DNA of 64,000 nucleotides from Roseivivax sp. THAF197b (lineage in GTDB: Bacteria; Pseudomonadota; Alphaproteobacteria; Rhodobacterales; Rhodobacteraceae), in the NCBI RefSeq assembly GCF_009363255.1, contig NZ_CP045318.1, forward strand, positions 2,159,501 through 2,223,500. Reading direction: 5' to 3'. Position numbers and translations under genes: made by a program. How positions within the stretch are numbered: the first letter of the stretch is position 1; each line of letters opens with the position of its first letter. Below, one piece after another: positions 2,089-63,721 of this stretch. Below the pieces are notes generated by a model, which saw only the letters and a list, made by a program, of their open reading frames with translations, was not told the origin of the DNA and ran no database searches.

Positions 2089-2115
2089 GACGCGCTGAGC
2101 GCCGGTTCAGACGCA

Positions 2116-2150
2116 AAAGGCCCGGAGCACATCGCTTCGGGCCTTTTTCT
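2116..2150. terminator. Bidirectional terminator between ialB-like gene and lpxB
   Basis: The stem AAAGGCCCG/CGGGCCTTT is followed by a T-run on the plus strand, and is preceded by AAAA, which becomes a T-run on the minus strand. It sits between two convergent genes and can end both transcripts. Confidence 0.85.
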
Positions 2151-2207
2151 TGTGCCGGATTAAGGGGCAGCGACCGCTTTCTGCGCTCTCTCAGCCCCGT
2201 TCCGCCG

Positions 2208-4285: not shown

Positions 4286-4291
4286 GCCGCC

Positions 4292-5544: not shown

Positions 5545-5647
5545 GGTCTTCCTCTCGGCTGGCCCAAATGCGCCGGGGCGCGACGGGGGCTGGGGCAGTT
5601 CCCGGTGGGTAGCAATCGGCGCCGCACGGTGCAAGCGCGACCGGTCC

Positions 5648-6400
5648 CTACTCGGTCCCGGCGGGCGACGCGTCGGGGTCACCCATGTCGAACAAAGCGC
5701 CACCTTCCGACCTGTCGGACTGCGCGCCGGACGGGTTCGGCGCCGCGTTTTCGGGGGCCGCGGCCGGATCGGGCAGCGATATGCCTTCGCCGTTCCCGAT
5801 ACGGGCATCGACGCGCGCAATCGCGAGATCGGTGATGTCGATCGCATTGGCCGACAGGAGCACATTCGCCCGCTCTATGATCAGCGCACCGCCCGCCTCG
5901 CGCAGGATATCGGTCAGAACGGGCTGCACGGCGTTGAAGAAGACGCGCCGCACGCGGTCGCCGCGATTGGCCAGATCGCGGGCCTTGGCATCCTGCCGCT
6001 GGCGCAATTCCTGCACGCGGGCATCGAAGGCATCGGCCAGTGCGCGAAACTGGGCCGCATCGGTCTCGGCGCGAAGATCTGTCAGGCGCCGCTCTTCCTG
6101 CGACAGCTCGGCCTCGATCTCGCGGTTCTCCGCGGCAAGCGCCTGCCCCGCAGCCTCGACATCGCCGATGAGACGCTGGCCAAGTGCGCTATCGGTGAAA
6201 AGCCGCTCGGATTCGAGCGTCAGGATCGGCGAGCGGACGATCTGCCGATCCGTATCATTTTCCTGCTGGGACGCCTCCGCGCGCGCAACGGGGGCCTGAT
6301 CGGCCGTCTGCGCGAGGGCCGGTGCGGAAAAGGCCGCCCATGCCCCAAGCGCCAGCAGCGCCGCGGCGAGGCTGGTGCGTATCGCCGCGGATCCGGTCAT
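5648..6400 (-). CDS. skp: OmpH/Skp family periplasmic chaperone
   Basis: A Skp-like trimeric chaperone that escorts outer-membrane proteins to the BAM complex. The 250-residue product has a signal peptide (residues 1-31, ending APALAQ) and a central, strongly charged coiled-coil region of about 110 residues ([21 protein letters not shown] and on). The conserved OmpH end, [20 protein letters not shown], lies near residue 185. A further 50-residue Pro/Ala/Asp-rich tail is longer than in E. coli Skp and may be unstructured. Its start overlaps the bamA stop as ATGA. Confidence 0.9.
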
Positions 6401-8754
6401 CAGAAATCGGTCGAGATCGTCAGCTCGAAGTTCTGCTCGCGATCCTCGTCTTCTTTCTGCAAGGCCTCGGAGAAGTTGAACCGCAAGGGACCGAGCGGTG
6501 TGGTCCAGAAGAGCGACAGGCCAATGACCTGACGGACAGCGCCGTCCTCATAGAGGACCTCGCCCGTGGCCGCGTCGGTATCATCGAGCCCCCAGAGCGA
6601 GCCCACATCGTAGAAGACACCGCCCGCGATGCCGTATTCCTCGGGCAGGCCAAGGGGGAATTCCGCCTCGAAGCGGGCGACGGCGTAGTAATTGCCGCCA
6701 AGCGCGTCGTCGAAGCCCGCCCCCTTTTCGCGCGGGCCGATGCCGCCCGGCTCAAAGCCGCGCATCCGGCTGGAACCCAGGAAGAAACGGTCGGTCACCC
6801 GGCTGCCCTGATCGCCGGTGTAATTCAGCGCGCCACCTTCGAAGATCGCGCGCAGCGTGACCTCTTCGGAGAAGGCCAGCCGCTGCGCCACCGCGCGCAC
6901 ATCGGTTTTCACGAAGGTCGTATCTCCGCCCACGCCGCCGAAATCCTGCCCGAACTCGAGCAGAACACCCGCATTCGGATCAAGTCCGGTGCGGCGCGTG
7001 TCATAGCTGAACCGGTACCCGATCGAACTTTGATAAAGCGCGCCCGCCTCGGCTTCCGAGGTCACGATGCCACCGACATCGGATTCGTCGGGCAGCGTCA
7101 GATCGGTATATTCGAGCGTGTAGCGCAGTTGCAGCCGCCCATTATCGGAAATCGGGAAGGTCAGCGACGGCGAGAAAGTGCCCGTTTCGGTGTTGTAATC
7201 CGCGTTCTGCCGTTCGGTGTTCGAATAGCTGAGCCCGATCCCGAAGGCGAGATCGCGGCCCAGAAGCGCCGGTTCGACGAAGCTGAACGAGTAACGGTTG
7301 CTGTCGGAGCTGGAGGTCAGGCCGAGGCTGAGTTGCTGGCCGCGACCGATGAAGTTCCGCTCCGCGAAGGACAGGTTCAGACCGAAGCCCGAGGAGGTCG
7401 AGTAGCTGCCCCCGATGGAGATCGAGCCGGTCGGCTGTTCCTCGACATCGACATCGACGATGACCTGCTGCGGGGTCGAGCCTTCACGCGCCTGCACCTC
7501 GGCATCCGCGAAGAAGCCAAGCGCGCGGATACGTTCGGCGGCATTGCGGATCTCGCGCGGATTGAAGGGATCGCCCTCGACGGTCTCGAACTGGCGGCGC
7601 ACGACCCGGTCGAGCGTGGTGGTGTTGCCCTCGATATCGATCCGCTCGACGAAGATGCGCGGGCCGCGGGTCAGGACATATTCGATATCCAGCGACAGAT
7701 CGCGGTCGTTGCGGGTCACGCGCGGCTCCACCCGCACGAAGTCGAGGCCTTCCTCGACCGCGCGACGCTCCAGCCGTTCGATGTCGCGATCCACAAGCTG
7801 CGGCGCGTAGACCTTGCCCGGACGTACGGCGACCGCACGCTGGAACGCGTCGATGTCGACCTCGGCCAGATCGGAGGTCACGGTGATCTCACCGAAGCGG
7901 AATTGCTGCCCTTCCTCGACATTGAAGGTGACGAAATATCCGTCCCGTTCCGCGGCAAGTTCGGCATTGGTGCCGGTGATGCGGAAATCGACATAGCCGC
8001 GCGAGGAATAGAAATCCTCAAGAAGCTGGCGGTCGAACTCGATCCGGTCGGCGATGAACGTGTCGCGCGTGATGATCGCGCGCAGAAGCCCCGCCTGCTT
8101 CGTCTCGAGGACGCGGCGCAGACGGCGGTCTGAGAATTGCTGGTTGCCGACAAAGGCGATCCGCTCCACCTCGGCGACGCCGCCTTCGAACACCTCGAAG
8201 ACCAGATCGACGCGATTGTCGGAGCGGCGAATCAAGCGCGGCTGCACGCGGGCGGCGATCCGGCCCTGGGCCACGTAAGCCTCGGCGATCAGGTTGGCAT
8301 CGGCCTCCGCCGTGGACGGGCTGTAGACGCGACGGGACTGGGATTGCAGAAGCGGCTGAAGGTCCTCGTCATCTATACGGCGATTGCCCTCGATCGCGAT
8401 GCGGTTGATCGTCGGATATTCGACCACGCGGATGAGCAGCGTGTTGCCTTGCGGCACGATCTCGACCTCCTCGAAAAGGCCGGAATTCTGAATGTTCTGG
8501 AAGGCGTCGTTCAGCTGCGATGCGGAGACCGGCTGACCGCGCGCGATGCCCGCGTAAGACAGGATCGTGCCCGGCTCGATGCGCTGTGCGCCCTCGATCT
8601 CGACATTCGTGAAGACGAAGCTTTGCGCCACGACCGGCGTTGGTACGGTGACCAATACTGCAGCGGTTGAAAGCGAGAAAGCGGCGATGGCGCTTATTTT
8701 CGCGAACCCGTTGAGCGCCGACATACCAGGGCGCGCGACAGCCGTTTTCGACAT
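6400..8754 (-). CDS. bamA: Outer-membrane protein assembly factor BamA
   Basis: BamA is the Omp85 insertase of the outer membrane. The 784-residue product has a cleavable signal ending VVAQ near residue 43 and five POTRA domains (about residues 48-420), beginning FVFTNVEIEGAQRIEPGTI. A 16-strand barrel follows, with the conserved lid loop motif GSSRMRGFEPGGIGPRE. The C-terminal beta-signal ends in phenylalanine (ELTISTDF). It is followed immediately by skp, then fabZ and the lpx genes, the usual arrangement for outer-membrane biogenesis. Confidence 0.97.
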   Translation of the reverse strand: MSKTAVARPGMSALNGFAKISAIAAFSLSTAAVLVTVPTPVVAQSFVFTNVEIEGAQRIEPGTILSYAGIARGQPVSASQLNDAFQNIQNSGLFEEVEIVPQGNTLLIRVVEYPTINRIAIEGNRRIDDEDLQPLLQSQSRRVYSPSTAEADANLIAEAYVAQGRIAARVQPRLIRRSDNRVDLVFEVFEGGVAEVERIAFVGNQQFSDRRLRRVLETKQAGLLRAIITRDTFIADRIEFDRQLLEDFYSSRGYVDFRITGTNAELAAERDGYFVTFNVEEGQQFRFGEITVTSDLAEVDIDAFQRAVAVRPGKVYAPQLVDRDIERLERRAVEEGLDFVRVEPRVTRNDRDLSLDIEYVLTRGPRIFVERIDIEGNTTTLDRVVRRQFETVEGDPFNPREIRNAAERIRALGFFADAEVQAREGSTPQQVIVDVDVEEQPTGSISIGGSYSTSSGFGLNLSFAERNFIGRGQQLSLGLTSSSDSNRYSFSFVEPALLGRDLAFGIGLSYSNTERQNADYNTETGTFSPSLTFPISDNGRLQLRYTLEYTDLTLPDESDVGGIVTSEAEAGALYQSSIGYRFSYDTRRTGLDPNAGVLLEFGQDFGGVGGDTTFVKTDVRAVAQRLAFSEEVTLRAIFEGGALNYTGDQGSRVTDRFFLGSSRMRGFEPGGIGPREKGAGFDDALGGNYYAVARFEAEFPLGLPEEYGIAGGVFYDVGSLWGLDDTDAATGEVLYEDGAVRQVIGLSLFWTTPLGPLRFNFSEALQKEDEDREQNFELTISTDF

Positions 8755-50075: not shown

Positions 50076-50238
50076 CGGGGGCACCCGCCCGTGATCGCGA
50101 TACCGCGCGAGACGGCAAATCGGTGCAATGCCGCCCTGCCAATCGCGGATCTCTCCGCTACATGACGGATCAGACAGGCGCGCCGGTGAATCCGCTCGGG
50201 CGCGCTTCACAACTTATACCGACCCGGAGACGCTTCAC

Positions 50239-51453
50239 ATGCCAGGCCCCTTGCACGGATTTCGGGTCATCGACCTGACCACCATGATCTCCGGTCCGCT
50301 GGCCACGATGACGCTGGCCGATCAGGGGGCGGAGGTCATCAAGATCGAACATCCCGATGGCGGCGATCACAGCCGTCAGGTCACCGGGCGGCGGGGTGGC
50401 TTTGCCGCGTCCTTCCTCAACAACAACCGCGGCAAGAAATCGGTCACGCTCAACCTCAAGGATCCGCGCGGCGTCGAGGCGGCGCTGCGCCTTTGTGAAA
50501 CCGCGGATGTCATCGTGCAGAACTTCCGTCCGGGCGTCGCCGAACGGATCGGCTTGGGCGAAGAGGCGGTGCGCGCGGTGCGGCCCGATATCGTCTATAC
50601 CTCCATCGCGGGCTTCGGCTTTACCGGCGACTGGGCGCGCAAGCCGGTCTATGATCCGCTGATTCAGGCACTCTCGGGTCTGGCCAGCGTGCAAGGCGGC
50701 GCGGATGCCGCCCGCCCCCGGCTCGTGCGGACGATCCTGCCCGACAAGCTGACCGCGATCCAGACGGCGCAGGCGATCACCGCCGCCCTTCTGGCGCGCT
50801 CCCGCAGCGGAGAGGGCAGCCATGTGCAGGTCTCCATGCTCGACACGGTGCTGGCCTTCCTTTGGAGCTCCGACATGGCGGGCTATACCTTCGTGGGCGA
50901 TGAGATCGAGCCTGCGAAAAGCGGCGATGCGCAGACCTTCGTGGAACTGATCTACCAGACTGCCGATGGCTGGATGGCCGTCTCCGCGCATACCGACAGC
51001 ACCTGGGCAGGGCTGGCCGCCGCGGTTGGACGTCCCGACTGGCTCGACGATCCGCGTTTCGCGACCGTCGCCGCGCGTGAGGAAAACAAACCCGCCCGGC
51101 TCGAATTGACCCAAGAGGCGCTGCATACGGACACCACGGCAAACTGGATGGAGCGGCTGAGCGCGCATGACGTGCCTTGCGCGCCGGTCCTGACCCGCGA
51201 TCAGGTCTATACCCATCCCCAGGTGCAGGCCAACGGCACGGTGATCGAACAGGACCATCCGCAGGCAGGGCGCATCCGTCAGACGCGCACCCCCGCCCGC
51301 TTCTCGGCCACGCCGCCCGATATTCCGATACCGGCGCGCCAACTGGGCGCCGATACCCGCGCAGTTCTGGCCGAGGCGGGCTATGACAGCCAAACCATCA
51401 CCGACATGATCTCGCAGGGCATCGCGACGGACACACAAGGCAGCGCAGAATGA
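50239..51453 (+). CDS. CaiB/BaiF (class III) CoA-transferase
   Basis: A 404-residue CoA-transferase of the formyl-CoA/alpha-methylacyl-CoA type. The N-terminal CoA-binding motif is ADQGAEVIKIEHPDGGDHSRQ, and FLNNNRGKKSVTLNLKDPRG follows near residue 60. The likely catalytic Asp is in RKPVYDPLIQALSG near residue 140, with the family spacing. The ATG at 50239 follows a GGAG about eight bases upstream. It overlaps the GST gene as ATGA, suggesting a two-gene unit for modification of a carboxylic or glutathione-linked substrate. Confidence 0.92.
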   Translation: MPGPLHGFRVIDLTTMISGPLATMTLADQGAEVIKIEHPDGGDHSRQVTGRRGGFAASFLNNNRGKKSVTLNLKDPRGVEAALRLCETADVIVQNFRPGVAERIGLGEEAVRAVRPDIVYTSIAGFGFTGDWARKPVYDPLIQALSGLASVQGGADAARPRLVRTILPDKLTAIQTAQAITAALLARSRSGEGSHVQVSMLDTVLAFLWSSDMAGYTFVGDEIEPAKSGDAQTFVELIYQTADGWMAVSAHTDSTWAGLAAAVGRPDWLDDPRFATVAAREENKPARLELTQEALHTDTTANWMERLSAHDVPCAPVLTRDQVYTHPQVQANGTVIEQDHPQAGRIRQTRTPARFSATPPDIPIPARQLGADTRAVLAEAGYDSQTITDMISQGIATDTQGSAE

Positions 51454-52184
51454 TCGACCTCTATTTCGCCCCGACGCCCAATGGCTGGAAGGCCGCGATC
51501 ATGCTTGAAGAAGCGGGTTTCAACTACCGGCCCATCCTGATGCGGCTGAGCGAGGGTGATCAATTCTCGCCCGAGTTTCTGGCGATCAGCCCGAATGCGA
51601 AGATGCCCGCGATCGTGGACCACGCGCCCGGCGAGGGCTGGGGCGACGATCCCGTGACCGTCTTCGAATCCGGCGCGATCCTGCTCTATCTGGCCGACAA
51701 GGCGGGGCAATTCGCCCCCCACCCGAGCGATCTGCGCGGACGCAAGGAATTGATGGAGTGGCTCTTCTGGCAGGTGGGCAATCAAGGCCCGATGGGCGGC
51801 CAACTCAGCCATTTTCGCAATTACGCGCCCGAAGATGCGCGCGATTACGGCTTCAAGCGCTATCTCGGCGAATATGACCGCAATCTCGGTGTTTTGGAGA
51901 ACCGTCTCGAGGATCGCGACTATATCCTGGGCACCTATTCGATCGCCGATATGCTGGCTTTTCCGTGGGCCTTTATCGCCAAGCCATTGGGCGCGTCGCT
52001 TGATGAATTTCCCCGCGTGGCCGATTGGCGCGCGCGGATCAAGGCAAGACCGGCCGTGCAACGGGCCATCGATCTGCACAAGTCAGAGCAGAACCGGGGC
52101 CAGCACCGGGCTGATAACAACATGATTTTGTTCAATCAATCCGCAGCTTCCCTCCGACCGAAAGGGGGCGGTGCGGCGGGATGA
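51450..52184 (+). CDS. Glutathione S-transferase, YfcG/Ure2-like
   Basis: A 244-residue GST. The N-terminal thioredoxin-like domain opens IDLYFAPTPNGWKAAIMLEE, whose T-P-N-G motif marks the Nu-class (YfcG, YghU) group that uses Asn or Thr rather than Tyr near glutathione. ESGAILLYLADKAG holds the glutathione gamma-glutamyl contacts near residue 75. The C-terminal helical domain ends with ADWRARIKARPAVQRAID. Members act as disulfide-bond reductases or organohydroperoxidases. It is coupled to the upstream CoA-transferase. Confidence 0.92.
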   Translation: MIDLYFAPTPNGWKAAIMLEEAGFNYRPILMRLSEGDQFSPEFLAISPNAKMPAIVDHAPGEGWGDDPVTVFESGAILLYLADKAGQFAPHPSDLRGRKELMEWLFWQVGNQGPMGGQLSHFRNYAPEDARDYGFKRYLGEYDRNLGVLENRLEDRDYILGTYSIADMLAFPWAFIAKPLGASLDEFPRVADWRARIKARPAVQRAIDLHKSEQNRGQHRADNNMILFNQSAASLRPKGGGAAG

Positions 52185-52567
52185 TTGCGCTGATCTGACT
52201 TGCTTGGGTTTACCAACGTGGAATGATGCCAAGATCATCGGTTTTGCGTCGGACAAGATCACACGAGGAAAATTCCCGCGCCAAGGCGACCCAGTTCTTT
52301 CGGCATCAGAGAGAAATGAGGCGACGACATTTATAAGGGAGGAAATGCCGCCGCCATTAAGTCTGCAAGAGGCTCGGGAGGAGGAGTGAACCGCTTGCCC
52401 ATTGATTTAGAGCATGTCGATGCTGCAGGTGCAAAGTAAAAAACGCCGCAACGCAGCATAAACTTTTCCAAGCGTCGCAAGTGCCCATGAATTGAGCAGA
52501 GAGCACGGCGCGCCGCAGCACGATCCTCCGTGCCTGATACGCGGGGCTCGCAGCCCTACCCGCGCCG
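52185..52567. other. 383-base AT-richer gap with a doubtful 72-codon ORF
   Basis: The base composition drops here relative to both sides. A frame at 52171-52389 would encode 72 residues beginning MRRDDCADLTCLGLPTWN and ending LQEAREEE, but it overlaps the end of the GST gene and has no clear ribosome-binding site. It may be a decayed gene. A short hairpin AGCAT/ATGCT lies near 52411-52424. The stretch marks the left edge of an accessory block and may be an insertion scar. Confidence 0.4.
52438..52458 (-). terminator. Weak terminator downstream of the 327-residue gene
   Basis: On the minus strand a short GCTGC/GCGGC stem with a GTT loop is followed by GTTTTTT. It lies about 110 bases after the stop at 52568. 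The stem is short, so confidence is low. Confidence 0.35.
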
Positions 52568-53551
52568 TCAGAGCGTCTGATCGTTTCTGCGAATGGTGAG
52601 CAGCCGCCTCAGCCAGCCGAAGCCCGCGATGGCACCGAGGATCGTCACGACCAACTGGAAGGTCGGATCGAGGATCACCGCCTCGAAAAAGGATGGGCGG
52701 ATGATGATGATGTCGTCGAAAGAAGCACCAAAATAGCGCACCTCAAGATCGTTCACCCCATGATCCGAAATTGCAGTGACGCGCATCAGGGATGTGTCGG
52801 GATCGGCCAGCATGATAGCCAAATGGCCCGTCGCGGTGTCGCCCTTCCGGTCCACGAAGCGCAAAAGCGCACCGCCCAGAAGCGCACCGCCGCGCAGTTG
52901 GCGCATGTCGCCGCGCACCCATCCCGTGGGGGTATAGCCGCGGATCTGGTAGCCGCCGGAGGCGACCGACAGCCGGTCGGTTTCCGAAAATCCCGCGCCG
53001 ATCTTGAGTTTGCCGCTGAGCGGCAATGTTCCGAATGTCTCGAGGACCTCTTGCCCCATGAGCACAAGCGCCCCGCCTTCCAGCCTGGCAACGTCCGAGC
53101 CTTTGTACCTGTCGGGCAGCGATACGACATCGATCCGCACCACGCCCGGCAAGGACGAGATCTTCAGTTCTGCACCGGCGGGCAGAACCCGCGTCGATGA
53201 TATTTCAGGACCGATGATATGATGCGTCCGGGACGGGCAACCCATGGGTTTCGGCGGCGTCGGGCTCTTACTTTCGAGAACCTCATCGTCATCGCCGTCT
53301 TTGGGCTTTTCGCAGATCCAGACTTCGCGGAACGTCTTGCCACTCATCTCCGCTTCGAGCGTGATCTCCAGCGCGCCCGTCTCCGCATCCACAACGATGG
53401 TGCGCCCGAGGCAGAACGCGAAATAGAGCCAAAATGCGATGATACCGCTCAGCAAGAGCGCGAAGAGGATGCGCGCCGCGGTGAGCAAAGACGGACACCA
53501 GCGGAGCAGGCTCGCGCGGATGGACCGCGGACGCTCCGGCATGGCGGTCAT
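52568..53551 (-). CDS. Membrane protein of unknown function, two-helix, 327 residues
   Basis: I do not recognise it. The product has one N-terminal membrane helix (about 22-50, LTAARILFALLLSGIIAFWLYF) and one near the C-terminus (about 295-315, LVVTILGAIAGFGWL). The intervening 240-residue domain should lie outside the cytosol. That domain has cysteines at WICEKP and MGCPSR and several beta-rich segments such as GGALVLMGQEVLETFGTLPLSG. It starts one base before the stop of the next gene upstream on the minus strand, so the two are in one transcript unit. Confidence 0.72.
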   Translation of the reverse strand: MTAMPERPRSIRASLLRWCPSLLTAARILFALLLSGIIAFWLYFAFCLGRTIVVDAETGALEITLEAEMSGKTFREVWICEKPKDGDDDEVLESKSPTPPKPMGCPSRTHHIIGPEISSTRVLPAGAELKISSLPGVVRIDVVSLPDRYKGSDVARLEGGALVLMGQEVLETFGTLPLSGKLKIGAGFSETDRLSVASGGYQIRGYTPTGWVRGDMRQLRGGALLGGALLRFVDRKGDTATGHLAIMLADPDTSLMRVTAISDHGVNDLEVRYFGASFDDIIIIRPSFFEAVILDPTFQLVVTILGAIAGFGWLRRLLTIRRNDQTL

Positions 53552-53552
53552 G

Positions 53553-54425
53553 TCAGCGACCCTCGTCCGGCAGGATCACGGTGATGTCGTGCTCGTCTTC
53601 TCCCAGGCTGCGGGTGACGAAGAAGGTGAGTTTGACGCGGCCGTCCTCGGCTTGGGCCTTGAGATCGGGGAATGGCAGGATGCAGGAAGCCGTATATTTG
53701 AGCGTGTCGGTTTCGGCGACGTCCTCGCATGGAACGAACGCCTGGTCCGTTCCCACGATCACCCCCGTCGGGTTGCCCGCGGAATTGACGAAGACATGCA
53801 GCGCTTTTTCATCCGGGGTTGGGCCTCCGTACCAGACCGATGGCACCACCAGTTCCGTCCGGTCGCCGCAACGCCCGACTTTCACGAGCGAGACCGCAGC
53901 CGTCTTGGTCACGTCCTCTTCGTAGTCGCCGTCATAGAGAAACGGGTCTTCGGGAGCCGTGACTTCATTCGCGATGGAATAGGTGTTTTCAGCCTCGAAC
54001 CGACCGTCCTTGGAATTGATCCGCACGCAGACATGCCACCTCGCATCCTGCTGCTCGTCGCCGCTGGGCTGCCCTGCCCGCGCCTGCCCCTGGGGCAGAT
54101 ACTCCACCGCCACATGCGCAGTCGTGCGCTCGACACCGTCTGCCAACGGGGTGTCGCTTCTTTGTTCGGCGTCGCTGCCCTGCCCGGCGTCATCGCCCTG
54201 CCCCTCCTCATTGCTTTGCCGAGCAACGAGCGCGCCGATCATGACGCCCATGACGATATCGCCGCTGACGCGCCCGTGTTCGTCGAAGCGTTCGAAGAAT
54301 TCCCCGACCCGCTGGATGTCCCCCGCTTGCGAGCTGTCTGCGTTCTGGGCATGCGCGCCCCGGTCGGGTAAAACGAAGGCAAGACCCAAAAGGATTGCCA
54401 AGGCCCGTCGACGACACCCAAACAT
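53553..54425 (-). CDS. Exported protein of unknown function, 290 residues
   Basis: I do not recognise it. The ATG at 54425 (MFGCRRRALAILLGLAFVLP) has a GGGGG site and gives a signal peptide cleaved near GAHAQ. Two upstream ATGs (54440, 54461) are alternatives and would overlap the divergent gene start. A Gln/Asp/Gly-rich run (GQGDDAGQGSDAEQRSD) lies near residue 80, and the remaining domain has four cysteines (WHVCVRI, VGRCGDR, FVPCED, TASCIL), likely two disulfides. It is divergent from the trypsin-like gene by about 34 bases, suggesting shared regulation. Confidence 0.7.
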   Translation of the reverse strand: MFGCRRRALAILLGLAFVLPDRGAHAQNADSSQAGDIQRVGEFFERFDEHGRVSGDIVMGVMIGALVARQSNEEGQGDDAGQGSDAEQRSDTPLADGVERTTAHVAVEYLPQGQARAGQPSGDEQQDARWHVCVRINSKDGRFEAENTYSIANEVTAPEDPFLYDGDYEEDVTKTAAVSLVKVGRCGDRTELVVPSVWYGGPTPDEKALHVFVNSAGNPTGVIVGTDQAFVPCEDVAETDTLKYTASCILPFPDLKAQAEDGRVKLTFFVTRSLGEDEHDITVILPDEGR

Positions 54426-54459
54426 TTCGCCCCCCGTCATTCGCAAGAAAGACCCGTTC

Positions 54460-55602
54460 ATGTTATCTTCCGGTACGCATTTTACAACGATTTGGCGCAA
54501 GCGCGGGACGCTTTGGATGGCGGGCTGCCTTCTTTGTCTGCTCGGAATTGCTGCGCATGCGCGCGTCGTCACGGTCGAGGATGGCAGCGGCGCGGGGTTT
54601 CTCGTGCGTCAGGGCGGCAATTGCTACGTCATGCTGCCCACTCATCTTCACGGCCGAAGCATGGAGGGCATCCGCCTCGGCTCCGACCGCGCGGGCGGGC
54701 CGATCGGCACGGCGAAGATCGTCTATGTCGCCCCCGATGATGCGGATATCTCGCTCGGCATCGTGCGCGGCGGCCTTGAGCGGGATTGCGGCGAGGAATG
54801 GCGCAGGTTGCCGCGCGACCTCAGCGACCGACTGACGCCCGGTGCCGAATTGATGCTGCAGCGTCCGCGCCAGCAGGTCTTCGAGGGGCGGCGCCTGATC
54901 CTCCATTCCAGCGGCCCAGAGCTTGTCCGTCTTGTTCCGGCACCCGGTGAACGCGCGGACCTTTTCGGTGGTACGTCGGGCGCCGTGGCCTTTCAGGGAT
55001 CCACGCCGATTGCGATGGTGCTGCAGGCAAACGGGCGGAGTGAGGCCATCGCCATGCGCATGGACAAGGTGACGGGGCTCGTCGGTCAGATGCTGCAAAA
55101 CCCGGTGAGCCGCGCGGCACCCGCGCTCGGGGCGGCGCCCGCGACCGCAGAACCCGGAGCCGCGGATTTAGAGGCAGACAGTCCCGCCACGCTTCCGCCG
55201 GGCGATCCGCTGGAAGCGGTGGAATGGTCCGCGCACCCGGTCGACGGTGCGGTCGATCCGGGTGAAATGCTGCGCGGCGCAGGCCCATGGATCTTCGAAC
55301 TGGGGCCGAAACCCGTCTCGCTGACCCTGCGCCTGACCGACACGGACCGGCTGAGCCGCATTCGCCTGCGCGCCGCGACGGGCACGGCGGCGGCCATCCC
55401 GCGCGGCATCAGCATTGTCACGAACAGCGCCACCGATCCCGCCCGCCCGCGTCTGTCTTCCATTCCCGCGCCGGACATGTCGCCGGACGGGGAGTTCGAT
55501 CTGCGTATCGGCGAACGCTTCGCGCATACGGTGACGGTCACGATCCTGTCGAGCTGGGGCGGCGCGTCACCGGTCCGGCTGGACGCGGTCTCGATCGACT
55601 GA
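54460..55602 (+). CDS. Trypsin-fold serine protease-like exported protein
   Basis: A 380-residue exported protein. The signal segment WMAGCLLCLLGIAAHA lies near residues 19-34; an in-frame ATG at 54517 is an alternative start. The next 170 residues follow the S1 protease plan: GSGAGFLVR, then YVMLPTHLHG with the likely catalytic His (about residue 62-64), DDADISLGIV with the Asp (about 96), and DLFGGTSGAVAF with the Ser (about 173). The canonical GDSGGP is altered to GTSGAV, so activity is plausible but not certain. A C-terminal beta-rich domain (about 245-380, WSAHPVDGAVDPGEMLRG) may bind a ligand. It faces the exported-protein cluster. Confidence 0.75.
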   Translation: MLSSGTHFTTIWRKRGTLWMAGCLLCLLGIAAHARVVTVEDGSGAGFLVRQGGNCYVMLPTHLHGRSMEGIRLGSDRAGGPIGTAKIVYVAPDDADISLGIVRGGLERDCGEEWRRLPRDLSDRLTPGAELMLQRPRQQVFEGRRLILHSSGPELVRLVPAPGERADLFGGTSGAVAFQGSTPIAMVLQANGRSEAIAMRMDKVTGLVGQMLQNPVSRAAPALGAAPATAEPGAADLEADSPATLPPGDPLEAVEWSAHPVDGAVDPGEMLRGAGPWIFELGPKPVSLTLRLTDTDRLSRIRLRAATGTAAAIPRGISIVTNSATDPARPRLSSIPAPDMSPDGEFDLRIGERFAHTVTVTILSSWGGASPVRLDAVSID

Positions 55603-55609
55603 AACGGGC

Positions 55610-56215
55610 TTATTCGGAAAGGTCTATCGTGCCCCGCGCCAGGTTTCTCTGGATCGATTGTTCCCCCACGAGCTGGCCCGATCCGTTCAACTCATAGGCG
55701 CCCCAGCTGCCCCCGAAGGACAGGCTGACCGCATCGCCGCGCATGCGCACCAGGCAGTAATTGCTGCGCGTATAGGTCCAGCATTCGTTTTCGCCGTCAT
55801 AGCCGGTGATCTTGAAGGTCACCGAGCCGTTGCCATCGGCGTCGATCACGCCCCCTGCATTGTTCACGTCGCGGGCAAAATAGCCGTCGGGCTCCTCGCT
55901 GACCGGGTCGAAGACGATCCGCAGCGTGGGATCGGAATCGAAAATCGCGCGCAGGGTGGTTGCGCGGATCGCGCGGTCGGTGCTTTGCAGACCGTGCCTG
56001 ACCGCCATGCGCCGTTGATCCGCGTCGCCCTTGCTGACCAGAAGATGCAGCACCGCAAGCGCCCGGTCGGGATCGGGGTCGTTCAAACGCTTGCGAAACT
56101 CCTCCATCGCCGTGTCGGTCGCATCTGCGGCCGCGTCGAGTTCATCGAGGCTGACCTGCGCGGCGGCGGGAACGGCGATTGCGGCCCAAAGCGCCAATAT
56201 CATTGATCGAAACAT
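55610..56215 (-). CDS. Exported protein of unknown function, paralogue A, 201 residues
   Basis: I do not recognise it. The ATG at 56215 gives a signal peptide (MFRSMILALWAAIAVPAAAQ). A helical repeat-like segment follows (LNDPDPDRALAVLHLLVSKGDADQRRMAVRHG), as in the HEAT-like style, then a beta-rich C-terminal domain containing ENECWTYTRSNYCLVRM. It is a clear paralogue of the next gene on the same strand (same layout of signal, helical part, cysteine motif, GSW/GSF, and a GxLVGE ending). The frame is open upstream of the ATG, but the signal start fits. Confidence 0.7.
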   Translation of the reverse strand: MFRSMILALWAAIAVPAAAQVSLDELDAAADATDTAMEEFRKRLNDPDPDRALAVLHLLVSKGDADQRRMAVRHGLQSTDRAIRATTLRAIFDSDPTLRIVFDPVSEEPDGYFARDVNNAGGVIDADGNGSVTFKITGYDGENECWTYTRSNYCLVRMRGDAVSLSFGGSWGAYELNGSGQLVGEQSIQRNLARGTIDLSE

Positions 56216-56217
56216 GA

Positions 56218-56862
56218 TCACCTCATCTGGATTGTTGTCGGATAGACGGTCTTGCTTTTGGGATTCGTTACCTCGCCGACGAGGATACCCTCGGAGGTCA
56301 GCGCGAAGCTGCCATTGATGCGGCTTGTGTAGATCATGTCGACCGTCAGGCCCGAGACCGACAAGTGATACGCGATGTTGCAGTCGCCGGCGCCATTGAG
56401 GTTCAGGCATTGCGTCTCGGGATTGCGGGCCGTGATGGCCCAGGTGCTGACCGCCCCGACCCACCCGTCAAGCGCTTCCCGCGCATCGTCATCGAGGTCG
56501 TCCGTGTCAATCCGGAGCGTGAGCGAGTCCTTCAGCGCCAGTGTCTCCCATAGGGCGCGGGCGCGCAGCCGCTCATCCGTGGCGGTCATGGCCGCGGCAA
56601 TCGCCGTCTCGCGCATGGTCGGATCGCCGGTCTGGAGCATGACATCGAAGGCTGCCAGCGCGCGGGTCGAATCGGCGCCCTGCAGGATTTCGGTGAGTTG
56701 CCGGTACTGGCCCGAGCGTTGATCGATATCCGCGATCAGCGCCGCGACATCGAGATCCTGCGCGGCCGCAGGCAATACCGTGATGCAGAGCGCGGCACAG
56801 CCCGCCGCAACCCGTGCCCGGATTGCCCTGCTGCACCCCTGGCGGCTTTTCGTTCGTTTCAT
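56218..56862 (-). CDS. Exported protein of unknown function, paralogue B, 214 residues
   Basis: I do not recognise it. A signal peptide covers residues 1-35 (ending VLPAAAQD). The helical segment TRALAAFDVMLQTGDPTMRETAIAAAM parallels that of the neighbouring gene, and the C-terminal part (ARNPETQCLNLNGAGDCNIAYHL, GILVGEVTNPKSKTVYPTT) again has a cysteine pair. The stop lies two bases before the paralogue's start on the minus strand, so the pair is co-transcribed, most likely after a tandem duplication. Confidence 0.72.
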   Translation of the reverse strand: MKRTKSRQGCSRAIRARVAAGCAALCITVLPAAAQDLDVAALIADIDQRSGQYRQLTEILQGADSTRALAAFDVMLQTGDPTMRETAIAAAMTATDERLRARALWETLALKDSLTLRIDTDDLDDDAREALDGWVGAVSTWAITARNPETQCLNLNGAGDCNIAYHLSVSGLTVDMIYTSRINGSFALTSEGILVGEVTNPKSKTVYPTTIQMR

Positions 56863-57039
56863 TGCGTGTCCCTATCCTTCAGCGCGCCGGTCAAGGACGC
56901 GCCCCGAAGATCCTATCCCCAAAATCCGCCCACGGCTCAGCGAAATTGCCCGAATGCGGCGCAGAGTGTCTCGCCCATCTGAACGTCGGTTGGCCGCCCC
57001 AGTAAAGATCCCCCAGCACCCCCTCCCGCCTTGCATGGA

Positions 57040-60000
57040 TCAAAACTCGATCTCGAAATCGTCGGACGCCGTACCCTCCGGCGTCAAAGAGGATCGCGCG
57101 GCCTGCAACCGGTCGAAATCCATCAGCACCACGCTGAATCCCGACGGCCCGCGCGGGTTGTGCCGCTCCTCGATATAGCTGAGCACTTCGCCGCAATCGG
57201 CAAAGAGGCCCGCGAACTCCTCGGAGAAGTCCGGCATTCCAAGATGGTGGGCCGAGCCCTCCACCTGAAGAAACGGCGTGTCTCCGTCATCGGCGGGAAC
57301 GAGGCGCGGCAGCGCCTGCATGCTGAACGGCATGGCGAAGCAGTTTTCCTGCGCGGTTCCCCAGCCCCGGAAACCGACCTCGTCATAGACCATGTCGGGC
57401 GCGTCGTATTTCTCGTCGAGCGCGGCGACGATGCGGTCGAAGGGCAACATCCCGTCGGGCAGCACCATGCGGCGCATGATCCCCACGATCTCGCCATCCG
57501 GGGCCCAGGAGGCAATCGTCAGCGCCTCCGTGCCGCCGCGCCGCAGATAGACGCGCTGATAGCCCAGCGCGCGCTGGGCGGGGGTTGCGTCTTCCGGGAG
57601 GGCCGTCGCGGTCTCGAACACCGCCTCGATCCCGTCCTGCGCCTCGATGGCCGCCACGGCATCCGCCACCTTCTGACCCGGGGCGAGGCCGAGCAGATCC
57701 CGCTCTGCCTCTCCGGCCCCGTCGAGCGTAAGCTCGGGCCAGTCCGCCGGTGCCTCCTCGGCGGGCGTGGGCGCGCGCGGGATGACCGCCTGTGCGGCCG
57801 CGAGGCGATCCTGCTCCGTGGGTTGTGGGGCAGGATCGGTCTGAGGCGATGCCTGTGCCGACGGGTCAGGAACCGGCCCGCCCTCCGGCGCTGGCGTCAG
57901 CACGGGACCGATGCCGCCATCGGCATCCTCGATCCGGGTCGCCGTGGCCTTTCCTCTCACGATGAAACCGGGAAGATTTCCGGGGCCATCGACGCTCTCC
58001 ACGCCGGACAATGTGAACGCCACATGGGTCGCTGTGGCGTCCCGTGCCGCGCGGGCTTCATGCACGGCCTCCTCGAATACGAGGACCGTCATCGCGCTTG
58101 TGCAGCGATCCGCCTGCGCGGGATGGGGCCGGGTATTCGCGATCGCATAGCGGCGCGGCACCGCGACAGGCCCCTCGGCGGATTGTACGGCCCGGGCCAG
58201 CGCGTTCTGATCCTCGCGCAGGCGCGGCAAGGCGGCCATGATCTCCTGACCGAGATGGCCGTAAGCCTCGACCAATGTGCCACATGTCCGATCGGGCCTT
58301 GCGGAGATGCGAGCCGTGAACTCCGTCCCGAGTGCGGCGGCCTTGGCTTGCAGCCAGGACCGGATCATTGCCCGGTGCCGGGTCACCCATACGGAATCCG
58401 GCCGCGTCTGCGCCTCTTCGAACAGGGCCGGACCCGCATGCCCGGCATCCCGCGCCTCCCAGGCCGCGGCGACCATGGCCTCGAGCTCCGGGTTCGAGGG
58501 GGCATGCCCGCCCTTGAGGGCCATCAGATCGACGATATGCGGCGTGATGCGCAGCGGGGTCTGGTCGAGCCCTTCGAATTCCGCCGGAACGAACCGGCGC
58601 GAAATGCGCTCCTCTGCGGTGGCGTTGGCGGCATCAAAACCGCGCTCGGCGATGACCTGCGGCAGGTTGTTGTCGTCAAGCGTGTAGAACACCATCCGGT
58701 CGGGGCGCGCAAAAAGCGTGAACTGGTTGGCGCGTCCATTCAGCCGTTCGGCCGTCTCGGGCGTCAGGGCCGCGAGCACCATGATGTTGCGGCGGCGGCT
58801 CTCCGCGACAAAGCGCGCGGTCTCGCGGTCCATCGACAGGGGCGCGAAGGCGTCGGGGCCCACAAGACTGATCGTCGCCTGCAGATTGCCCTGCCGGACG
58901 CGGACATTCATGCCGCCTTCGCGGAAGGCAAAGGTGCCCTTCTCAAGATCATAGGTATCGAGCTGCAAACCGGTCCGGATCACCAGCGGCTGCTCGGCCC
59001 CGGCCCGCAGCGCCGCGATGGCGGTATCCACGGCGGCGGGCGCATCGAATTCGTTGGCCTGAACGACCTCGGGCATCAGCCGCGCGACCGCCTCGAAACC
59101 GTCTTCGCCCAGAAGCTTTGCCACATGACCGGCAATCGCCGTCTGATCCGATGTCTCAGCCTCCGCAACCTGCCGCGCAAGATCCGAAACGGTGGGTTCG
59201 GCAGGCGTTTCGGGCGCTTGCGGCGCGGGGATCATCACCGCCTCCACCGGCAGCGAGAGCACCTCCCAATCAAGGTTCGGACCTGCATAGATGCCGATGC
59301 GGCGCAGTGTGCCCTGCCCGGTGCGGATCGTGCTGTTGCGCCTTGTGCCGAAGGCCTGCTCTGTCGCGGAGGTGTCGACGGAATAGTCGAAATCCGCCCA
59401 CCAGACGAGCCGCACCTGCCGCTCCTGCGCAAGCTGGCGCAGTACGCGTGCTTCGTCGGGCGGGACCTGCAAGGCCTCGGGCAGGTTGCCGAACCGCGAC
59501 GCCGAGGCCAACCCCTCGTACCGCCCGTCTGCCGGCAGGTTCACGACCCGGAATTGCCCGTCCGGCAGGCCCGAATGCGACCGCTGGATCGGGAAGCTCT
59601 CGGTGTCGAAATCGTACTGCCCCAGCGACAACACCGTGCTGTGCCGGACCTTCACGGGCCAGCTTGGCGCGCGCGCAAGGATGGCGTCGTAATAGCGGTC
59701 GAAGAAGACGCGGCTCGCATCCCGGCGGGCGAACTCGTCGGGAAACGGATCTGAGACATTCTGACCGTTCGTGACCATCTGGACGATATACGGGTTGTTC
59801 CCCCGCGGTCGGCCGAAAAAGCTGCGATAATCAGCTTCGGACATCAAACCCTGCGCGACTCCGATGAAGGCGTTGCCTTCGCGCGGCGCGTCGGGGTTCT
59901 GACCCAACCACGAGAGCGCGGTGAACGTGCTCCATTCCGTGCGATTGGCATTGGACGTTGGCAGCGGTACGTCGAGCATATCATCGACGACCGGCAATCC

Positions 60001-61815
60001 GAGCGATCGGGCCAGCACAAGCGCGCTTTGCCCTGCCACCACCTCCGAGCCGCTCCGGCCCAGATCCCAGCGATGCAACGGCTCCGCCCCCGGCTCCAGC
60101 GGCAGGATAGCCCGGCGGAGATTGTTCATTGCGACAAGGTGCAATTCGGCCCGCGCGGGCTGGAAGGTGGCCGGGACGCCCCGATAGACCACCTGCCGGG
60201 CAAAGCTCTCGACGCTTTCATCGCGCCCGATCCGGGTGATCTGCCCCCAGATCACGTGGCGCAATTGCCGCCCCTGCGCGCTGGCCTCCGTCACGCGGTC
60301 GATGAAGGCCGCCGCTTCCGCGCGTTCCATCGGCACGGGGCTAAAAATCTCGGTCGGGAGCGTCAGGGTGATCTGCCCCACGGGATAGGGCCGCGCGGTC
60401 ACCACGACCTGAGGCGCGCCGCCCACGAGTTCCAGCCCTTGGCCATCGGCATAGGTGCCGGGCCGGGCGAAGGCATAGAGCGTGACGTCGAGCGGCTCTT
60501 CCGGCGTGACCGGGCGCACGGCGTTCGCCTCCGCGATCAACGCCGCACGCAGGGCCGCGCGCGCATCCTCTTTCTCGATCACGTTCAGGGCGTTGAACTG
60601 GCGGTCTGCGGGATCGGTCTCGGCATTGGCGAGCCTGCGGAAGGCGTCGACCGTGCTGGGATTATCCAGAACCGACGGGTCGGCCTGAATGGCGAGCATG
60701 GCAAGGCGGCGGGCGAAGCCCTCGGGCGCATCGACGATCTTTCCCTGGTCGATATGCGCGCGCGGACCTGCGGGGATTTGCGCGACGGGCGTGCTCTCCG
60801 CCCCAGAACCAAAGGCGTCCGCGCCGTCTGCGAAGGGCAGACCGGGTGCGTTCATTGGGGCCGCGCCTGGGACAGCGGCCAGCGATCCGCCCAGATTTTG
60901 GATCCGGCTCTGCATGCTTTGGCTGAGGCAGGCGGCATTTGCCCCGCAGGCATTGCGGGTCTGAAGCCAGGCGGATTGATCCGCGGGCCTGCCCCGCGCG
61001 TTCCAGGCATCGGCAAGCGCGCGGTCGAGCGCGGCCAGCGACGGGTTTGTGCAAATGGCGATTTCGGTGGGCGTTGCCGCACGCGCGCAATCGAAGCTTG
61101 GGCCCGCATTGGCCGGTGCCATGTTTCCGGGGGCCAGATTGCCACCGCCCGGAGTTCCCAACGCCAGCCCCCCTCCCCCGAGCGCGCCGAACCCCGAGGT
61201 CAGCGCGGCAAGCTCCGAGCGGGTCAGCACGCCGGTCGGCGCCTTACCGATGCTGCTTTGATAGGCGGCAATCGCCGCGCGTGTGCGCTGGCCCGGCTGG
61301 CCGTCCACGGGCCCCCCATTGAAACCGCGCGCATTGAGCGCCGATTGAATGGACCTCGCCTCTCGCGACAGCTCAGCCGGGCTCAATTGCGGATCGCCCG
61401 GCGCAAAGCCGGTGCTCGCGGCCCCGACCAGATCCGCCGTCACGCTGGAGGGGACCCCGTTCGACCCGAAGACCCGAACCTCGAGAATTGCAGGCGCACC
61501 GGAGCGCAGCGCCGCCTCCGCCGCAGGAGACAGACCACCGCGCGCAAGCAGCGACGGCATCTGCGCGCGCATGCCCCGGGACTGGAAGACGCGGTCCACG
61601 GTATCGCCCGGCTGGCTGCGACCGAACCGGTGCACGTTGGCCCGGTCCTGCACCATCATCGCGATCGGCCCGCGCAGAGGCGCACCGGAGGAGTTCTGCC
61701 GATCGACGGCGCCGATCTCGGCGCGGTAGGTTTCAATGACCGTCTGGGGCAGTGCCGAGGTTGCCAGGGCCGCGAAAGCCGCGGCGAGCGTCATCGTTCT
61801 CAAGCGCATGGTCAT
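57040..61815 (-). CDS. Giant exported protein with peptidoglycan-binding and LprI-like domains, 1591 residues
   Basis: A very large exported protein of unknown function. The ATG at 61815 (MTMRLRTMTLAAAFAALATS) overlaps the stop of the M15-peptidase gene as ATGA and has a GGAGGT site. After the signal comes an unassigned region, then a PG_binding_1 module (about 147-208, IQSALNARGFNGGPVDGQPG). A Cys-rich LprI/DUF1311-like module follows (about 243-310, FDCARAATPTEIAICTNPSL). A long central part (about 330-1200) has repeated beta-type blocks with no family I know. A Pro-rich linker lies near 1310, and a final domain (about 1350-1591) contains MLPFDRIVAALDEKYDAPDM. It probably acts at the cell wall. 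Confidence 0.82.
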   Translation of the reverse strand: MTMRLRTMTLAAAFAALATSALPQTVIETYRAEIGAVDRQNSSGAPLRGPIAMMVQDRANVHRFGRSQPGDTVDRVFQSRGMRAQMPSLLARGGLSPAAEAALRSGAPAILEVRVFGSNGVPSSVTADLVGAASTGFAPGDPQLSPAELSREARSIQSALNARGFNGGPVDGQPGQRTRAAIAAYQSSIGKAPTGVLTRSELAALTSGFGALGGGGLALGTPGGGNLAPGNMAPANAGPSFDCARAATPTEIAICTNPSLAALDRALADAWNARGRPADQSAWLQTRNACGANAACLSQSMQSRIQNLGGSLAAVPGAAPMNAPGLPFADGADAFGSGAESTPVAQIPAGPRAHIDQGKIVDAPEGFARRLAMLAIQADPSVLDNPSTVDAFRRLANAETDPADRQFNALNVIEKEDARAALRAALIAEANAVRPVTPEEPLDVTLYAFARPGTYADGQGLELVGGAPQVVVTARPYPVGQITLTLPTEIFSPVPMERAEAAAFIDRVTEASAQGRQLRHVIWGQITRIGRDESVESFARQVVYRGVPATFQPARAELHLVAMNNLRRAILPLEPGAEPLHRWDLGRSGSEVVAGQSALVLARSLGLPVVDDMLDVPLPTSNANRTEWSTFTALSWLGQNPDAPREGNAFIGVAQGLMSEADYRSFFGRPRGNNPYIVQMVTNGQNVSDPFPDEFARRDASRVFFDRYYDAILARAPSWPVKVRHSTVLSLGQYDFDTESFPIQRSHSGLPDGQFRVVNLPADGRYEGLASASRFGNLPEALQVPPDEARVLRQLAQERQVRLVWWADFDYSVDTSATEQAFGTRRNSTIRTGQGTLRRIGIYAGPNLDWEVLSLPVEAVMIPAPQAPETPAEPTVSDLARQVAEAETSDQTAIAGHVAKLLGEDGFEAVARLMPEVVQANEFDAPAAVDTAIAALRAGAEQPLVIRTGLQLDTYDLEKGTFAFREGGMNVRVRQGNLQATISLVGPDAFAPLSMDRETARFVAESRRRNIMVLAALTPETAERLNGRANQFTLFARPDRMVFYTLDDNNLPQVIAERGFDAANATAEERISRRFVPAEFEGLDQTPLRITPHIVDLMALKGGHAPSNPELEAMVAAAWEARDAGHAGPALFEEAQTRPDSVWVTRHRAMIRSWLQAKAAALGTEFTARISARPDRTCGTLVEAYGHLGQEIMAALPRLREDQNALARAVQSAEGPVAVPRRYAIANTRPHPAQADRCTSAMTVLVFEEAVHEARAARDATATHVAFTLSGVESVDGPGNLPGFIVRGKATATRIEDADGGIGPVLTPAPEGGPVPDPSAQASPQTDPAPQPTEQDRLAAAQAVIPRAPTPAEEAPADWPELTLDGAGEAERDLLGLAPGQKVADAVAAIEAQDGIEAVFETATALPEDATPAQRALGYQRVYLRRGGTEALTIASWAPDGEIVGIMRRMVLPDGMLPFDRIVAALDEKYDAPDMVYDEVGFRGWGTAQENCFAMPFSMQALPRLVPADDGDTPFLQVEGSAHHLGMPDFSEEFAGLFADCGEVLSYIEERHNPRGPSGFSVVLMDFDRLQAARSSLTPEGTASDDFEIEF

Positions 61816-62669
61816 TCGCCAACACCTCCGGTCAATCTGCTGAACAGGATCAATTCTGGTCGGTACTCGAAATGCATTCCGTCGAAATGGTGCCACTTGC
61901 CGCCCCAGATGAAGCCCCGGCGCTCCATCGCTTCCACGAGACGCCAGGGGATGCGGTTGTCATAAGCCCCGACCGCGCCCTCCTTGGCGCCCGACCAGCG
62001 CCAATAGCCGCCCAATGCGGCATTCACATCGACTGCAATCCCGTAGGAATGCGCGCTCAGCCGGTCGGTGCCCGCGATCCGACGCCAGGCATATCCACCG
62101 CCCACTTGCGTGAAGGCGGGCGCAATCTCATCCCAATGGGGCGCGAGGTCGGCAAAGGCCGATTTCAACTGGCAGGCAACGCCATGGGCGCCGGTGACCC
62201 GGAACCGCGCGGGGCCGAAGGTGACCGTCTCAAGCGCGCGCTCGACCGTGCCCGCGTCTGAGCCGAACAGAAGCCTGAGAAACGCGCCATTGCGCGCTCG
62301 ACCGGGATCCTGCGCGGGATCCATCCGGCGGTCGAGGTCTCGCGACAGCGGATAAGCAATGGCGAACTGGTCCTCGATCGTGGCCGCCGCAATGCGTTCA
62401 GGGGCGGGTCGCCCCGTGGGGGGCTGCGCGTCCACGGATCTGCCCGCAAAGGTCAGCCGCGCCCCACCCGGCTCGGCCTGCGACACGGTGACCGCCGGAT
62501 AGGCCAGCCGGATCGCCGCGATCCAGGCGGGATCGGCGGCCGCTGCAGGCAGAGCTTCGTTCAGGAAATCCCGCGCGATACAGCCTTGCGATGCGGCAGG
62601 GCCCGCCAGCATGCTCAGGGCAAGGATCAGAACGGCAAAAGCGCGCGTATGCGTAAGTCTTTGTTTCAA
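61812..62669 (-). CDS. M15-family (VanY/M15C-like) peptidase, exported
   Basis: A 285-residue exported peptidase of the M15 D-Ala-D-Ala carboxypeptidase / L-Ala-D-Glu endopeptidase family. The signal covers residues 1-28 (ending GPAASQ). The zinc site is visible: His in LSAHSYGIAVDVN (about residue 207), Asp at 214, and the C-terminal H-x-x in DGMHFEYRPEL (about 266). All ligands are intact, so it is probably active on peptidoglycan stem peptides. The frame is coupled by ATGA to the 1591-residue protein, so the two are made together. A perfect TATAAT -10 box lies in the AT-rich leader upstream. Confidence 0.88.
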   Translation of the reverse strand: MKQRLTHTRAFAVLILALSMLAGPAASQGCIARDFLNEALPAAAADPAWIAAIRLAYPAVTVSQAEPGGARLTFAGRSVDAQPPTGRPAPERIAAATIEDQFAIAYPLSRDLDRRMDPAQDPGRARNGAFLRLLFGSDAGTVERALETVTFGPARFRVTGAHGVACQLKSAFADLAPHWDEIAPAFTQVGGGYAWRRIAGTDRLSAHSYGIAVDVNAALGGYWRWSGAKEGAVGAYDNRIPWRLVEAMERRGFIWGGKWHHFDGMHFEYRPELILFSRLTGGVGE

Positions 62670-62747
62670 AGGAACGATCGCAAACGGAGAAGGAACACAA
62701 AGAGCGGCCGGAAGACCAAATACTTAAGAAAAGATTAATCTAACGAA

Positions 62748-62777
62748 ATTATATCTCAGAATTTTGGTAAAAAGTCA
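62748..62777 (-). promoter_or_regulatory. Sigma-70-type promoter of the M15 peptidase operon
   Basis: On the minus strand, a perfect TATAAT (62748-62753) and a TGACTT -35 (62772-62777) are 18 bases apart in an AT-rich stretch. They would start a transcript about 70 bases before the peptidase ATG. Confidence 0.55.
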
Positions 62778-62918
62778 TGGTTTTCTTGCCCGCGCGTTTT
62801 CCCGGACATGGGAGAGGCCTTTGTCAGTGCGCGGTCGGCCCAGGCCGCTGCGTGCCTGTCACAGTCTCACACGGGATCGAACGAGGCCGTGCAAACCGCG
62901 CGGCCCCCTGTCATCGCG

Positions 62919-63383
62919 CTACGCCTCGGCATCCGGCGGCGGCAGGAAATCAACCTCGTGCAAGGCGGACAGACGCATGAGTTCTGCCGGTTCCGTAACC
63001 CCATCGAGCGCACCAAAAAGATCAAAGAGCTTGCGCGTGGGCGAGACGCCGAAGAGGCAAGTCGCGTCAGCCCCGGAGCGATTGAACACCGCATGCAGGA
63101 CGCCTTTCGGCATGCGCACCATGTCCCCCGCTCCCGCCCGATGGGGCTGCACATTGCCCGCCTCGAAGCCGAAATCGACCTCCAGCGCGCCGCTCAGCAC
63201 GTAAATCCACTCATCCTGATGCGGATGGACATGCGGCGGCACGAATGTCTCCGCGGGGATTTCCGCGTGCCAGACAAAGGCATCCGCCGATACCAATTTG
63301 GGCCGGTAGATATGCCCGACGACATTCCACGCGATCCCGTCCAACCCTTCGTTGGAGGATGTAACTCCCGCTCCGTTATGCAT
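62919..63383 (-). CDS. Cupin-domain protein, 154 residues
   Basis: A single cupin domain. The conserved metal-binding motif is FVPPHVHPHQDEWIYVLSGALEV near residue 55, and the second motif is AGDMVRMPKGVLHAVFNRSG near residue 95. The ATG at 63383 has a GGAGG site six bases away; an in-frame ATG at 63398 is less likely. Cupins of this size bind a metal and a small ligand; the enzymatic role cannot be told. It is transcribed in the same direction as the M15 operon but separated by 249 bases. Confidence 0.88.
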   Translation of the reverse strand: MHNGAGVTSSNEGLDGIAWNVVGHIYRPKLVSADAFVWHAEIPAETFVPPHVHPHQDEWIYVLSGALEVDFGFEAGNVQPHRAGAGDMVRMPKGVLHAVFNRSGADATCLFGVSPTRKLFDLFGALDGVTEPAELMRLSALHEVDFLPPPDAEA

Positions 63384-63635
63384 TTTGTCCCTCCGCATTT
63401 TATTGCTTTCGGCAGGCTAAGCGCATTTCGGGATAAAAGGGTAAGGAAATATCTCGGACGCGCATCCCAGCGATGCTCGGCTTGATCCGCCCCGCGCACC
63501 ATGACCGACCGGGATCCTGGCCGCCTCAAATGCCCGCGAGACGGTATGTGCATCGCGCCGAAAGTTGCAGACGCATTTCGGCACGCAGGCCGCAACCGCT
63601 GCCCACTTTTCCAAACCAAACGTCATTGAAAGGAT

Positions 63636-63721
63636 TGGTACCCGAGGTCGGACTCGAACCGACAAGGTGTTGCCACCGGGGGATTTTGAATCCCCTGCGT
63701 CTACCATTCCGCCACTCGGGC
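63636..63721 (-). tRNA. tRNA-Leu (anticodon CAA)
   Basis: An 86-base tRNA on the minus strand. The acceptor arm GCCCGAG/CTCGGGT is followed by A and an encoded CCA. The anticodon loop TTCAAAA within the stem GGGGA/TCCCC gives anticodon CAA, reading UUG. The long variable arm GGTG/CACC is typical of leucine tRNAs, and the T-arm GTCGG-TTCGAGT-CCGAC is canonical. Confidence 0.95.

Follow-up and report, generated by a model that had tools for sequence, protein, structure and literature searches.

The gene block considered here occupies positions 52568..62669 of a 64,000-nucleotide stretch of the Roseivivax sp. THAF197b genome (NZ_CP045318.1, positions 2,159,501 to 2,223,500), which was analysed as a whole and is called the window below. 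Its closest described counterparts are the HtrA/Deg proteases (DegP, DegS, HtrA1), the F5/8 type C and CBM32 domains (chitobiase C-terminal domain, CpGH89 CBM32), the M15_4 peptidases of the LAS type (L-alanyl-D-glutamate peptidase, 2vo9), and proteins with LprI lysozyme-inhibitor and PG_binding_1 domains. Two papers also set out the concept of the noncontiguous operon, with the S. aureus menE-menC-MW1733-ytkD-MW1731 genes and phage 80alpha ith-1/tha-1 as examples (PMC7154746, PMC11087260). None of the enzymes of the Roseivivax block has a new fold or founds a new family; the novelty lies in two gene sets that are conserved and in the antisense arrangement of one of them, module 1 below. In a limited search of the open-access literature, neither set was found described.

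We read the block as two independently inherited modules that are adjacent in this genome, with functions proposed for each, and give this account as a whole a probability of roughly 0.55. Module 1 consists of genes A to E, and module 2 of a peptidase gene (M15) and the gene for a giant protein:

Gene A, 52568..53551, minus strand: predicted membrane protein of 327 residues, with hydrophobic segments at 19-55 and 291-318 and a 235-residue domain between them
Gene B, 53553..54461, minus strand: 302 residues, probably exported
54459..54462, no strand assigned: CATG, in which the start codons predicted for B and C overlap head to head, read from the sequence
Gene C, 54460..55602, plus strand, the other four genes of the module being on the minus strand: predicted exported serine protease of 380 residues
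Gene D, 55610..56215, minus strand: 201 residues, exported, with one weakly HEAT-like half
Gene E, 56218..56862, minus strand: 214 residues, tandem paralogue of D
Giant, 57040..61815, minus strand: multidomain protein of 1591 residues, probably exported
61812..61815, minus strand: ATGA, stop codon of M15 overlapping the start of the giant, read from the sequence
M15, 61812..62669, minus strand: M15_4 peptidase of 285 residues, exported, with motifs SxHxxGxAxD (H207, D214) and DxxH (D263, H266)

A preliminary description of this DNA had reported seven genes for exported or membrane proteins in about 10 kb. All seven reading frames are present at these coordinates and lengths, and all seven proteins have homologues elsewhere, so these are real genes and not chance frames. 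A hydropathy scan shows two hydrophobic segments in A and a single N-terminal segment in each of C, D, E and M15; B and the giant fall below the threshold used, yet each begins with a signal-like stretch. The products of A to E, described as largely unrecognisable, have no Pfam or NCBIfam match above cut-off. For the whole set NCBIfam gave nothing above cut-off, and Pfam gave only the PG_binding_1 domain of the giant and Peptidase_M15_4. The reported tandem pair is D and E, paralogues with 26-30% identity. Four cysteines of B (C145, C198, C245, C260) are invariant in nine sequences, as are C145 and C154 of D in 12.

Separate occurrence of the two modules

The preliminary description had proposed a single seven-gene system for cell-wall remodelling or inter-bacterial envelope functions, with C, M15 and the giant acting together. 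Gene order is indeed conserved in relatives, but as two separate sets, A-B-C-D/E and M15-giant. Plasmid IV of Paracoccus aminovorans carries A-B-C-D-E, all annotated as hypothetical and flanked by unrelated genes, and no M15 relative was found on that plasmid. The giant and M15 occur together in Primorskyibacter sedentarius (L033), in Pelagivirga sediminicola (L034) and on a P. seriniphilus plasmid, where they are annotated as an M15 family metallopeptidase and a peptidoglycan-binding protein. The fetched flanks of L033 and L034 contain none of A-E (the L034 contig ends just past the giant); for P. seriniphilus, the 18.8 kb of retrieved sequence showed no A-D, and a search confined to the plasmid found no C. 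P. sedentarius holds both modules apart, with C on a contig of 163,216 bp and the giant on one of 184,550 bp. When the C profile was run on the P. sedentarius, Pelagivirga and G066 genomes, its one match was in P. sedentarius; Pelagivirga and G066, both of which have a giant, gave none. Among eight congeners, module 1 was seen in one and the giant in none; only the widespread N-terminal domains of the giant matched there.

Because the modules are found apart in other genomes, a single seven-gene system is not supported, and the block is two modules, a conclusion that we hold firmly. Joint action of the seven genes would account for their adjacency and for the exported or membrane character of all of them. 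It would also suit the PG_binding_1 proteins that lie near three other module 1 cassettes (L105, L108, L109), in a setting of 2-11 such matches per genome in the 15 genomes searched. Against the separate occurrences described above, this reading is very improbable. The wall-remodelling idea fits module 2; module 1 is tied to peptidoglycan only by the PG_binding_1 proteins near those three cassettes, two of which are similar loci.

Recurrence of module 1

We examined 17 loci that contain C (the window, L081, L082, L104-L109, L130-L135, L141 and L142), and the A, B, C and D families are all present in every one. Beyond the window, gene A was found at 14 loci by hidden Markov model; at the other two, L134 and L135, the model recognised it weakly, and profile-profile comparison with hhalign made it clear. 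Profile building drew on the window, L081, L082 and L104-L109, plus five database proteins in the case of C. The eight loci that did not contribute (L130-L135, L141, L142) are therefore independent detections. At the more distant loci the proteins are 17-29% identical to those of the window. D is present in one to three copies per locus, with three in the A-B-C-D cassette of P. sedentarius (L141). In the search of eight congeners and the window's own genome, a 7380-base contig of congener G248 (L104) showed all five genes, A to E, with order and strands as in the window; no M15 or giant was found on that short contig. L131 corresponds to the Tistrella mobilis plasmid pTM2. Neighbour clustering at 15 loci (all except L141 and L142) gave no family other than A-D common to more than five; L130 and L131, from one genus, have four neighbours in common. 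Module 1 is a recurrent, apparently undescribed gene set in which D/E, A, B and C travel together, and very probably constitutes a functional unit.

Several points count against this conclusion. The loci were chosen for holding C or D, and the co-occurrence count is conditional on that choice. They are also partly related: L130 and L131 come from one genus, as do the window and L104, and L105 resembles L108. D-like genes occur at L083 and L084 with none of A-C nearby.

The C profile matched 9 of 295 genomes of the family, including the window's own and one partial match (G225), and 6 of 385 genomes of the class, its own among them, extending to three further families. With at most five or six candidates scored per genome for C, and about two for the giant in the family search, the counts for both are lower bounds. 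Such a patchy distribution, together with the occurrence on plasmids and the variable number of D genes, might be expected of an antagonism or defence device in which C acts on incoming or neighbour proteins, damaging or processing them, and the D/E copies serve for immunity or as inhibitors. In a scan of the seven proteins with PADLOC profiles, however, the sole match was gene E at an expectation value (E-value) of 0.029, which is not credible as an anti-phage system, and a pattern scan of viral contigs gave no relative of C. We consider this explanation unlikely.

Other genes near the cassettes were recorded as well. An IS110-family transposase gene (L104, 5805-6821) lies near the congener cassette and is a possible hint of mobility. 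The rearranged cassette of L107 adjoins a bacterial alpha-2-macroglobulin with PAN domains (1431-6887), a possible protease trap, although this is probably a coincidence. A caspase-domain (Peptidase_C14) protein is encoded a few genes past gene A in L082 (14206-15657). The PG_binding_1 proteins mentioned above lie at L105 12423-13790, L108 5826-7085 and L109 5712-7253; the C terminus of the last resembles the C-terminal domain of the giant by eye, with a weak profile match (E-value 0.07).

Gene C encodes a predicted protease with an HtrA-like fold

The product of gene C is composed of two parts:

Residues 31-214, 54550..55101, plus strand: HtrA/Deg-like protease domain with triad H62, D96 and S173
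Residues ~250-380, 55207..55599, plus strand: beta-sandwich like F5/8 type C, CBM32 and APC10 domains, from Foldseek and the predicted model

The predicted structure bears out the trypsin-fold protease of the preliminary description: the first part adopts a chymotrypsin-type fold, and structure comparison matches it to DegP and DegS. H62, D96 and S173 are present in 21 of 21 sequences, and by analogy would fill the catalytic roles. No trypsin-type family exceeds its curated Pfam cut-off in 14 members of the family. From the conserved triad and the model, C is likely to be an active protease. The limits of the beta-sandwich were set by us from the strands of the model, since Foldseek printed no ranges. 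Foldseek matches to this tail (4ui9, 3ggl, 3f2z, 4a44, 2kd7) have E-values of 2.8e-6 to 2.7e-5, and there is a very weak sequence hint to an F5/8 protein (E-value 0.58).

C differs from the HtrA/Deg proteases in its tail, in its constant partners A, B and D, and in being missed by the Pfam trypsin models. No PDZ family appears among the Pfam matches of the 14 members, and the VIA structure list spanned residues 31-219 only; the model suggests an F5/8- or CBM32-like tail instead. The tail is like the F5/8 type C and CBM32 domains in being a beta-sandwich in the model, and in C this sandwich is fused to an HtrA-like protease. The match to DegP and DegS would also suit a general HtrA-type quality-control protease for which A, B and D are incidental neighbours. 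We give this almost no credence: all four genes are kept in 17 of 17 loci, no PDZ domain is recognised, and the genome samples contain the cassette less often than would be expected of a housekeeping protease.

Antisense layout of module 1

Genes A, B and D point the same way in 14 of the 17 loci, and C sits antisense to them in the space between B and D. C and D are convergent in 16, and their stop codons are -7 to +19 bases apart in 15. At L081 the gap between C and D is 220 bases, within which the end of C is partly duplicated. Module 1 resembles the noncontiguous operon in having one gene antisense within a co-oriented set (PMC7154746, PMC11087260); its layout is known from genome comparison alone. 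Because C is antisense between D(E) and B-A, the likely control would be of the noncontiguous-operon type. Antisense control of module 1, which we suggest from the gene arrangement, is a tentative proposal.

Two observations weigh against such control. The layout is changed at three loci, with D moved past A in L107 and B, A and C co-oriented in L134 and L135. A sigma-70 scan of positions 52000-63700 found no promoter-like site, where 1.7 are expected in shuffles and other promoter types lie outside the scan; a shared transcript and a promoter for C are therefore unsupported by the sequence. Module 1 may instead be inherited as a unit whose layout reflects descent and compact packing and has no regulatory meaning. 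Strand order is often inherited passively, and the three rearranged loci kept all four genes. Persistence of the layout in the other 14, at protein identities down to 17-29% and with mostly different flanking genes, argues the other way. Passive inheritance is possible, though we do not favour it.

The M15 peptidase and the giant protein

The preliminary description had coupled an intact M15 peptidase to the 1591-residue protein by an ATGA overlap, and this was seen at 61812-61815. M15 matches Peptidase_M15_4 with 69.5 bits (cut-off 25, E-value 3.6e-19) and shares with the LAS-type enzymes the SxHxxGxAxD and DxxHFE motifs, both intact. In the alignment with 2vo9, H207, D214, D263 and H266 fall on identical residues; we take their roles to be zinc ligands and catalytic acid. 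M15 differs from these peptidases in being exported and coupled to the giant, and some of its relatives are coupled to small N-domain proteins. The giant is divided as follows, all on the minus strand:

Residues 20-140, 61396..61758: N domain, which also occurs as free-standing small exported proteins, some adjoining M15 genes
Residues 154-205, 61201..61356: PG_binding_1 (Pfam E-value 1.7e-9, 38.2 bits, cut-off 23)
Residues 243-308, 60892..61089: LprI-like, below cut-off in the window's giant
Residues 340-1330, 57826..60798: no family match, with little recognisable in the P. seriniphilus giant
Residues 1355-1591, 57043..57753: conserved C-terminal domain

A protein search gave ten relatives of the giant. 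The P. seriniphilus protein conserves the N, PG_binding, LprI and C-terminal domains. Several members of the family resemble the LprI and PG_binding_1 proteins in carrying both domains near the N terminus; they differ in their length of ~1000-1700 residues, in a long middle region, and in having in some cases an added N domain and often a conserved C-terminal domain. LprI is above cut-off in four of six other giant-like proteins (L036, L136, L138, L139), and below it in L137 and L143 and also in P0014.

The N domain tracks the peptidase. M15 lies immediately upstream in all five loci whose giant has an N domain (the window, L033, L034, L036, L143), and in none of the five where a giant or giant-like protein with peptidoglycan-binding and LprI domains is without one (L035, L136-L139; fetched DNA). 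Genes for free-standing or otherwise fused N domains adjoin M15 in 5 of 19 loci. In L039 and L043 the N-domain and M15 genes share a single base, and in L040 the two are convergent. Recruitment of M15 by the N domain, suggested by this gene association, is an even proposition.

Three points tell against this picture of module 2. L143 was found through its M15, and when it is left out the association is 4/4 against 0/5. The match of M15 to 2vo9 is weak (E-value 0.05). Of the two modules reported earlier for the giant, PG_binding_1 stands and the LprI-like region does not reach its threshold (13.3 bits against a cut-off of 22).

Further observations concern the N domain and the giant. Small exported N-domain proteins are encoded directly before M15 genes in L039, L041, L042 and L043, a stand-alone version of the M15-giant pair, and two of them hold two copies in one frame. 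One neighbour family is shared by four N-domain loci (L044 8963-9487, L047 9083-9565, L049 8841-9311, L053 9377-9964). In G066 the giant homologue is split over three overlapping reading frames (L035, 6241-11093), through either decay of the gene or faulty assembly; the DNA fetched there showed no M15.

Beside the block in the window, a CoA-transferase III and GST gene pair (50235-52153) has 79-84% DNA identity to two congeners. This match breaks off close to where the GST gene ends, and those congeners therefore lack the seven-gene block at that place.

Proposed functions and significance

Module 1 would be a recurrent envelope proteolysis cassette. C would be an exported chymotrypsin-fold endopeptidase of the HtrA/Deg-like type, probably held at its target by the F5/8-CBM32-like tail. 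A may serve as an anchor in the inner membrane, its large domain lying in the periplasm, and B and D/E as exported partners: adaptors, substrates or inhibitors of C. With E-D-(antisense C)-B-A on one minus-strand transcript and C on an opposing one, the protease could be balanced against its partners. In module 2, an exported M15-family cell-wall peptide hydrolase would be co-translated with a giant periplasmic protein that binds peptidoglycan by means of PG_binding_1 and uses its N domain to associate with the peptidase.

In a bolder version, module 1 would be a mobile system for envelope proteolysis of a new kind: an HtrA-like protease with a glycan-binding-type tail, encoded antisense within the operon of its own membrane anchor and adaptors. 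RNA polymerase collision or RNase III would switch expression from protease to partners and back, the arrangement would be a noncontiguous operon preserved in several alphaproteobacterial families, and the D copies would be interchangeable adaptors or inhibitors. We regard this version as rather doubtful.

Four protein families accompany one another around a secreted protease whose catalytic triad is intact, an association that has apparently escaped notice. The layout of module 1 is compact, and in it a long-lived antisense arrangement is open to direct test. The N domain, in tracking M15 peptidases, offers a bioinformatic handle on the way in which a cell-wall hydrolase might be tethered to a giant partner that binds the wall.
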